From: a virus
Strand: one strand, 5' to 3'
IMG/VR virus record: IMGVR_UViG_3300046171_000231
Span: 62,001 to 126,000 of that record
DNA length: 64,000 bases
Positions within the stretch are counted from its first letter, which is position 1, and the number at the start of each line of letters is the position of its first letter. A program made the position numbers and the translations under genes. A model generated the notes under the pieces. It searched no databases. It was given only the letters and a program-made list of their open reading frames with translations, and had not been told where the DNA came from. Positions 31,719 through 33,036 of this stretch are shown here, one piece after another.

Positions 31719-32808
31719 TTAACCAATTGCAGGTGCTGTTAAAGCAACTGTTGTAGACTCAGCAGATGCTAGGTCTAATGGGAAGTTGTGTGCATTTCTT
31801 TCGTGCATTACTTCCATTCCTAAGTTTGCTCTGTTTAAAACATCGCCCCATGTTGGTACAATTTTACCATTAGCGTCTACTACAGACTGGTTGAAGTTGA
31901 AACCGTTTAGGTTGAATGCCATTGTACAGATACCCATTGAGGTTAACCATACACAGACTACTGGGAATACAGCAAGGAAGAAGTGTAAACTTCTTGAGTT
32001 GTTGAATGAAGCATACTGGAAGATAAGTCTACCGAAAGTAACCGTGTGCTGCCACGATATTATATGTTTCTTCTTCTTGTCCGAACTTATAGCCGTAGTT
32101 TTGACTTTCTGTTTCTGTAGTTTCTCTAATTAAAGAAGATGTAACTAAGCTACCGTGCATTGCACTGAAAAGACTACCACCGAACATACCTGCAACACCA
32201 GCCATATGGAATGGGTGCATTAGTATATTGTGCTCTGCTTGGAACACGAACATAAAGTTGAACGTACCTGAGATACCTAGTGGCATTCCGTCTGAGAAAG
32301 AACCCTGTCCGAAAGGATACACTAAGAATACTGCAAATGCTGCAGATACAGGTGCTGAATATGCTACACATATCCAAGGTCTCATACCTAATCTGTATGA
32401 TAGTTCCCACTGTCTGCCCATGTAAGCAGAGATTCCGATTAGGAAGTGGAAAATAACTAACTGGTAAGGACCACCGTTATATAACCATTCGTCTACTGTT
32501 GCTGCTTCCCAGATTGGGTAGAAGTGTAGACCGATAGCGTTTGATGAAGGAACAACTGCACCAGAGATGATGTTGTTACCATACAAGAAAGAACCCGCTA
32601 CTGGTTCTCTGATTCCGTCGATATCGACTGGAGGTGCTGCAATGAATGCAACGATGAAACATGCTGCTGCTGCGAGTAAGCATGGAATCATTAGGACACC
32701 AAACCAACCAACGTAGATTCTGTTGTTTGTTGATGTTACCCATTCGCAGAACTGTGGCCAGCCTGCTAGTAGACCTTGCTGTCTACCTTGTTTTGAAAGA
32801 GTTGTCAT
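31719..32808 (-). CDS. psbA: Photosystem II D1 protein (one frameshift)
   Basis: Reconstructed 362-residue D1; host D1 is 358-360. It starts [20 protein letters not shown]. Tyr161 and Asp170 lie in '[18 protein letters not shown]', the His215 region is '[20 protein letters not shown]', and the Mn-binding C-terminus is '[17 protein letters not shown]'. At 32035-32037 an AAA run (plus strand) holds one extra base, breaking '[19 protein letters not shown]'. The residues on both sides are universally conserved, so an indel error is likely. No group I intron is present. A long structured leader and two late promoter boxes precede it. Function: replacement of photodamaged D1 during infection. Confidence 0.97.
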
Positions 32809-32984
32809 TAGTAAGACGTTTGTAAATAGGGCAACAGGGAAGTTGCGATATTTATTTCCAGTAATCCCTCACTACTGGATAGAAAGACGAAGTATTATAC
32901 TGCCTATAGGTCTTGGTTTGAGAGCAGTTTGTAGTCAGGGTTACGATTGTTTCGAGTCCTTTCTAATGGTGAGGAAACCCTCAC
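32809..32984 (-). ncRNA. Structured 5' leader of psbA (PhotoRC-like candidate)
   Basis: About 176 bases between the late promoter and the ATG. A hairpin GTGAGG-GTTT-CCTCAC (32969-32984) would be at the extreme 5' end of the RNA. Then comes a 27-base block (32936-32962) shared with the porin leader, a 5-bp ACTGC/GCAGT stem, and a hairpin CCAGTA/TACTGG (32858-32878). Its loop repeats the GTGAGGG heptamer, so CCTCAC could pair with either copy. RNA motifs named PhotoRC-I and PhotoRC-II are known ahead of psbA in marine cyanobacteria and phages; I cannot test the match here. Confidence 0.6.
32849..32856 (-). promoter_or_regulatory. Second late promoter box close to psbA
   Basis: The minus strand reads AATAAATA, about 40 bases before the psbA ATG and downstream of the structured leader. 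It would give a short, unstructured transcript. Confidence 0.4.
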
Positions 32985-32989
32985 TTCTT

Positions 32990-32997
32990 TATTTATA
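32990..32997 (-). promoter_or_regulatory. Late promoter of psbA (perfect TATAAATA)
   Basis: TATAAATA on the minus strand, with the expected start site about 6 bases downstream, exactly at the first base of the 5' hairpin. Confidence 0.65.
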
Positions 32998-33036
32998 TTA
33001 ACAAAACTTTACAGAAAAGTCAATAAGTATAAATAC

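Follow-up and report, generated by a model that had tools for sequence, protein, structure and literature searches.

Comparison of cyanophage psbA leaders points to a pseudoknot core in an extended PhotoRC-II RNA

The phage psbA gene is a classic virus-borne photosynthesis gene, and little is known of its post-transcriptional control. The copy considered here lies in a stretch of 64,000 nucleotides (the window), which is a portion of a virus record of 235,761 bases (G000). Its open reading frame runs from 32808 to 32029 on the minus strand, beginning with the start codon at 32808-32806, and all the elements of its leader (Table 1) are found on the same strand. The region is the psbA leader of a Prochlorococcus-type cyanomyovirus; the nearest isolate, and the nearest annotated relative, is Prochlorococcus phage P-HM2, whose leader is 91.2% identical. 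The psbA (32808-31719) and psbD (31660-30583) frames, both on the minus strand, are each frameshifted, the window psbA carrying one extra base compared with an intact relative that is 93% identical (L002); the frameshifts reflect either sequencing error or decay. Just downstream of psbD, a gene for an HNH endonuclease (PF14279) is located at 30475-30107 on the minus strand, which recalls the homing endonucleases near cyanophage psbA. In the P-HM2 record (L360, 617-751), a hypothetical protein of 44 amino acids has been annotated within the psbA leader RNA; it is probably no gene, since the length of the leader varies among relatives.

Table 1. Elements of the psbA leader, in window positions, from the promoter to the start codon
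Feature	Position	Strand	Basis
Composite promoter: TTGACT (33023-33018), 17 nt, TAATAT (33000-32995), overlapped by the late box TATAAATA (32997-32990)	32990-33023	-	sequence; relatives
P0, hairpin at the expected 5' end: GTGAGG-GTTT-CCTCAC	32969-32984	-	pair probability 0.985; putative start site
Pa block GGACTCGAAACAATCGTAACCC, common to the psbA and Phage_OMP leaders of the window	32938-32959	-	in 44 of 176 psbA leaders
PhotoRC-II (RF01717) match	32844-32943	-	62.8 bits, gathering score 39
Hairpin 1, stem S1: ACTGCT (32928-32923) with GGCAGT (32904-32899)	32899-32928	-	relatives
Pseudoknot helix S2: AAGAC (32914-32910, hairpin-1 loop) with GTCTT (32888-32884, linker)	32884-32914	-	relatives; alignments A1 and A2
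P2, hairpin 2: CCAGTA/TACTGG, loop GTGAGGGAT	32858-32878	-	Rfam model; 100% of cells paired in A2
K, proposed loop-loop contact: AGGGA (32869-32865) with TCCCT (32840-32836)	32836-32869	-	complementarity
P3o, outer helix: TAAAT (32854-32850) with ATTTA (32827-32823)	32823-32854	-	centre-pair covariation
P3, third hairpin: GCAAC-TTCCCT-GTTGC, 22 nt before AUG	32831-32846	-	relatives
Pre-start element CGTCTTACTA and psbA ATG	32806-32818	-	sequence; related CGTCCTC before ATG in many host psbA genes

The original prediction, which was made from the letters of the window, had described a structured psbA leader, and all the sequence elements that it named were found at the positions it gave. The structure matches PhotoRC-II over the full length of the Rfam model (1-96), with its two hairpins, its conserved AACC.AGACCUA and AGGG loops, and its location ahead of psbA in DNA of marine or phage origin. 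Folded as a whole, the 179-nt leader has an energy of -43.8 kcal/mol (z -3.23), and none of 200 shuffled sequences did equally well. PhotoRC-II was described by Weinberg et al. (2010), and the leader of the window shares with it the position, hairpins 1 and 2, and the conserved segments AACC[GA]AGACCUA and GUCU.UCAUA. The Rfam model, however, consists of two nested hairpins and stops before P3, whereas the leader extends beyond it by S2, P3 with P3o, a complementarity between loops 2 and 3, a fixed spacing to AUG, and P0. The CaCoFold study of Rivas (2020; PMC7657543) counts RF01717 among the families whose alignments hold more covarying pairs than had been annotated; the specific pairs are given in the supplement, and S2 may be among them. 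Since this extra covariation has already been reported, we present the wider architecture as a revision and extension of the model of a known RNA, and claim no new family. No published description of a pseudoknot in PhotoRC-II was found in a literature search that stopped short of that supplement and of Additional File 1 of Weinberg et al.

For comparison, leaders were gathered from IMG/VR by three psbA scans and one pattern scan, and from ten isolate records. From 294 psbA starts, 106 repeats and three leaders that were too short were removed, leaving 185 distinct leaders; 76 loci gave no psbA start. A pattern for the hairpin-1 loop, ACC[AG][AG]G[AG][CT], is carried by 176 of these leaders and absent from nine, and most of the 176 are of a long form, the remaining 23 being of a short form. 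As leaders were picked by this pattern, the conservation of the loop letters is partly a product of selection; the linker strand that pairs in S2 is free of it. Alignments A1 and A2 hold 45 and 70 leaders, respectively, hand-picked from 152 long references, and A2 was drawn from class-A leaders, odd or hard-to-align ones being excluded. Counts based on P3 cover 147 of the 153 long leaders in which P2 was parsed (the automatic choice of P2 is visibly wrong in L043, L067, L155, L157 and L209), and those on pairing with the 5' hairpin cover the 119 long leaders in which this hairpin was detected and a late box is present.

Stem S1 could be parsed in all 176 leaders, with 60 distinct pairs of strands, and its mean Watson-Crick run is 5.11, compared with 3.99 (maximum 4.14) for swapped strands. 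Inside the loop of hairpin 1, the five bases that follow AACC are complementary to the linker, and this S2 complement is full (five of five) in 175 of the 176 distinct leaders, across eight types of the loop strand S2a (GAGAC in 87 leaders, AAGAC in 64, GAGAT in 10, AGGAC in 7, GAGGC in 4, GGGAC in 2, AAGAT and GGGAT in one each), with GGGAC opposite GTCTC in L169 as the sole exception. On a tree of psbA coding sequences (173 leaders), S2 underwent 45 two-sided changes (26, 8, 3 and 8 at pairs 1, 2, 4 and 5) and a single one-sided change, a count in which choosing the partner for best complementarity favours pairing, and which psbA recombination may inflate. The MAFFT alignments A1 and A2, which were built without use of pairing, both have 100% of the S2 cells paired. 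Across A2, 96.2% of the cells are paired, compared with 88.0% after shuffling and 30-51% after sliding, and 154 cells are changed on both sides, compared with 36.3; A1 agrees. The geometry is that of a compact H-type pseudoknot, S1 being mostly 5-8 bp and L2 mostly 2-7 nt long. The 23 short-form leaders keep the pseudoknot and lack hairpins 2 and 3 (the P2/P3 domain), and in all 23 of them S2 ends 30-37 nt before AUG. Comparison of the leaders identifies the predicted H-type pseudoknot S1/S2 as the constant core of the psbA leader RNA. The original prediction had also proposed a pseudoknot; the kind of structure was right, and the partners are those of S2 instead of CCTCAC and GTGAGGG. The CGTCTT before AUG was considered as an alternative partner for S2a; GTCTT at that place accompanies AAGAC in 38 leaders, and GAGAC as well in ten. 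RF01717 was detected in only two of 20 short-form loci (L057 and L073), even at E<=0.01, and the current model therefore misses most of the short-form members.

The long-form leaders have a further hairpin between P2 and the start codon. In A2, two-sided changes are found at four of the five pairs of P3, and between the end of the helix and AUG there are 18-25 nt in 141 of 147 leaders. Its outer part, P3o, reads UAAAU/AUUUA in the window and UAAGU/ACUUA in most relatives; the centre pair is GC in 54 and AU in 15 of the 70 A2 sequences, with one gap and no exception, and the psbA tree has nine two-sided changes in P3o and no one-sided change. The longest Watson-Crick run of P3o is 4.80 on average over the 147 leaders, against 3.99 (maximum 4.17) for swapped strands. 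On this comparative evidence, a predicted third hairpin in two parts, P3 and P3o, extends the structure beyond the Rfam model. The AGGG of loop 2 and the CCCU of loop 3 can form at least four Watson-Crick pairs in 123 of the 147 leaders, compared with a mean of 41 and a maximum of 55 for shuffled sequences, and a kissing contact between the two loops is possible. Covariation at K is almost nil (L011 and L045 only, both being A-C in the A2 columns) and, as the two loops hardly vary, it cannot prove the contact.

There are also reasons against simply trusting this structure model. A home-made, R-scape-like scan against a tree null (E<0.05) flagged one pair in class A and five in class B, of which five belong to P2 and one is non-canonical, and it flagged neither S2 nor P3 in the MAFFT alignments, which are visibly misaligned. 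Moreover, the unconstrained minimum-energy fold of the window's leader favours a clade-specific helix between Pa (GUAACCCUGACUAC) and P2, giving P2 a probability of 0.335; among 124 folded leaders, 102 have a P2 probability higher than 0.5. The Pa-P2 helix itself was rejected, since its mean duplex energy in 44 leaders (-11.78) is close to that of swapped strands (-11.54, best swap -12.62), and it is thus not conserved.

Upstream of the structured region, the late box fits, at about -10, the T4-type late promoter consensus NATAAATA (PMC2984593). It is overlapped by sigma70-like elements, and the psbA promoter, which had been taken for a purely late one, is by its sequence a composite sigma70/late promoter whose register is common to most relatives. 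Sufficient upstream DNA was available for 172 leaders. TTGAC and the late box occur together in 122 of them (106 with a spacing of 26 and nine with 27), TTGAC alone in 32, the box alone in 12, and neither in six. A composite promoter agrees with the report that psbA of P-HM2 belongs to the middle genes (PMC5082946), and in S-PM2, early and late promoters have been reported to overlap at middle genes (PMC2984593).

P0 begins five bases beyond the late box, and very few shuffled versions of its 45 nt score as well (p=0.01). T4-type late spacing, which we take to apply here, together with this distance, would place the start of the RNA at the first G of the hairpin. A promoter-proximal 5' hairpin, as the original prediction had it, is present in most relatives: of the 134 leaders that have a late box, 110 carry one with a score of at least 9, usually 3-9 nt beyond the box, with 77 distinct stems among them. 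Other late boxes in the window mostly lack such a hairpin, p<=0.05 being reached at only four of 26, two of which lie in the psbA leader.

In the original prediction, the arm CCTCAC could pair with the GTGAGG of its own hairpin or, alternatively, with the loop copy in P2, and a second late promoter (AATAAATA, 32856-32849) would yield an RNA free of this control. The alternative pairing does exist in the window and in five close relatives (P-HM2, L002, L242, L259 and L356), where arm and loop match over 6 bp with a duplex energy of -8.0 kcal/mol. These six, a single clade, are all the cases found among the 119 comparable leaders; GTGAGG occurs in loop 2 of 32 of them, and only six of the 32 have CCTCAC in the 5' hairpin. 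There is no clear excess over arms swapped between leaders, of which 4.1% match over at least 6 bp, and forcing the pairing costs 6.8 kcal/mol (-37.2 versus -44.0). Only 11 long leaders out of 153 have the second box, and it is part of the RNA helix P3o. We have accordingly dropped both the switch as a conserved feature and the second promoter, and regard control of this kind as most improbable; covariation in homologous leaders, the test that the original prediction had set itself, went against the switch and in favour of the other helices. Through GTGAGG, the leader might also be targeted by a small RNA of the host, for example Yfr1 or Yfr10, whose conserved motif we take to be complementary to it. 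The window has GTGAGG in both P0 and loop 2, and Yfr2 pulled down the host psbA in MED4 (PMC6778093); however, given that loop 2 carries the motif in only the 32 leaders mentioned and that its conserved part is AGGG, we hold this explanation to be very unlikely.

The reading that we favour, as the somewhat more probable one, is that the extended PhotoRC-II is a cis-acting leader that stabilises the psbA mRNA and gates the access of ribosomes, a well-supported structure to which a conjectural mechanism is attached. Transcripts from the composite promoter would start at P0 or a few bases from it, and P0 may then shield the mRNA from 5'-end-dependent decay where the RNase E activity of the host may be high; infection by P-SSP7, a phage of a different type, is reported to raise host RNase E (PMC9692554). 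The pseudoknot and the pair of hairpins P2 and P3, perhaps held together by the AGGG/CCCU contact, could form a compact domain set against the ribosome landing site, and with the domain at a fixed distance from that site, the opening of P3o would set initiation, such that the folding and opening of this weak helix may determine the level of psbA translation. A passive leader, whose helices would serve just for mRNA stability and an unobstructed start region, without regulation, is a less probable explanation, to which we give a small but real chance: the 5' hairpin is kept as a shape with many different stems and the start region lies outside the helices, but the exact spacing to AUG and the conserved unpaired bases exceed what a stability hairpin needs.

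A third reading would make the pseudoknot, with its invariant unpaired ACC and its conserved UCAUA flank, the aptamer of a riboswitch or an ion or redox sensor, in which a metabolite or ion would draw P2 and P3 together through AGGG/CCCU and thereby open or close P3o, gating psbA translation. Small H-type two-stem pseudoknots are known from the preQ1 and SAM-II riboswitches, and the leader resembles these in shape and in its place before a start codon. The ACC is invariant in all 45 leaders of A1, partly by selection as the search pattern contains it, and the compact geometry and constant spacing to AUG would suit such a device; the fold of a would-be aptamer is conserved, and an expression platform is suggested by the AUG spacing only. 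On the other hand, a table in Weinberg et al. (PMC2864571) rates a switch function of PhotoRC-II as unlikely, no ligand is known, and the sample consists of psbA leaders only, and we consider this reading improbable. If it were true, the phage would adjust the synthesis of D1 directly to the host's state in a light-driven infected cell. For the favoured cis-acting leader, the pseudoknot conserved in nearly all leaders and the fixed spacing to AUG offer exact base pairs to mutate, and an old computer-predicted motif becomes a candidate control element that can be put to the test.

PhotoRC-I (RF01716) is the motif of host cyanobacteria, and by eye host psbA leaders share with the phage leaders a GUCUC/GAGAC complementarity and CGUCCUC before AUG; in the hosts, in contrast, the strands form a local hairpin and stand in the opposite order. 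PhotoRC-I gave no match in the three host loci scanned. As to a host origin of the RNA, RF01717 was found in none of three sequences and none of 300 family genomes, a search with a silent control and stricter filters by which absence is not shown. Among 80 psbA loci taken from the genome collection, only L431 has the pseudoknot; this locus is labelled Euryarchaeota, and its leader is phage-like.

The outer stem of Pa has a mean of 3.95 in psbA leaders, against 3.66 (maximum 3.98) for swapped strands, and is without covariation support. The same block, GGACTCGAAA.ATCGTAACC, opens a second leader in the window (54665-54541, minus strand); this leader precedes an open reading frame (54540-54181, minus strand) for a cyanophage outer-membrane-like protein (Phage_OMP, PF24653). 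No Rfam family matched the Phage_OMP leader at gathering score in the four loci tested. Its block is shared by the window and 71 distinct relatives, and in 68 of these 72 a terminator-like stem CCCTG/CAGGG followed by a T-run is located between the promoter and the gene; the leader is a candidate attenuator. Among the related contigs, a manA RNA (RF01745, 110 bits) was found at L071 2852-3052, near psbA on the same contig, and a cyano_tmRNA (RF01851, 132 bits) at L239 859-550 on the minus strand, next to tRNA genes in a cyanophage contig.
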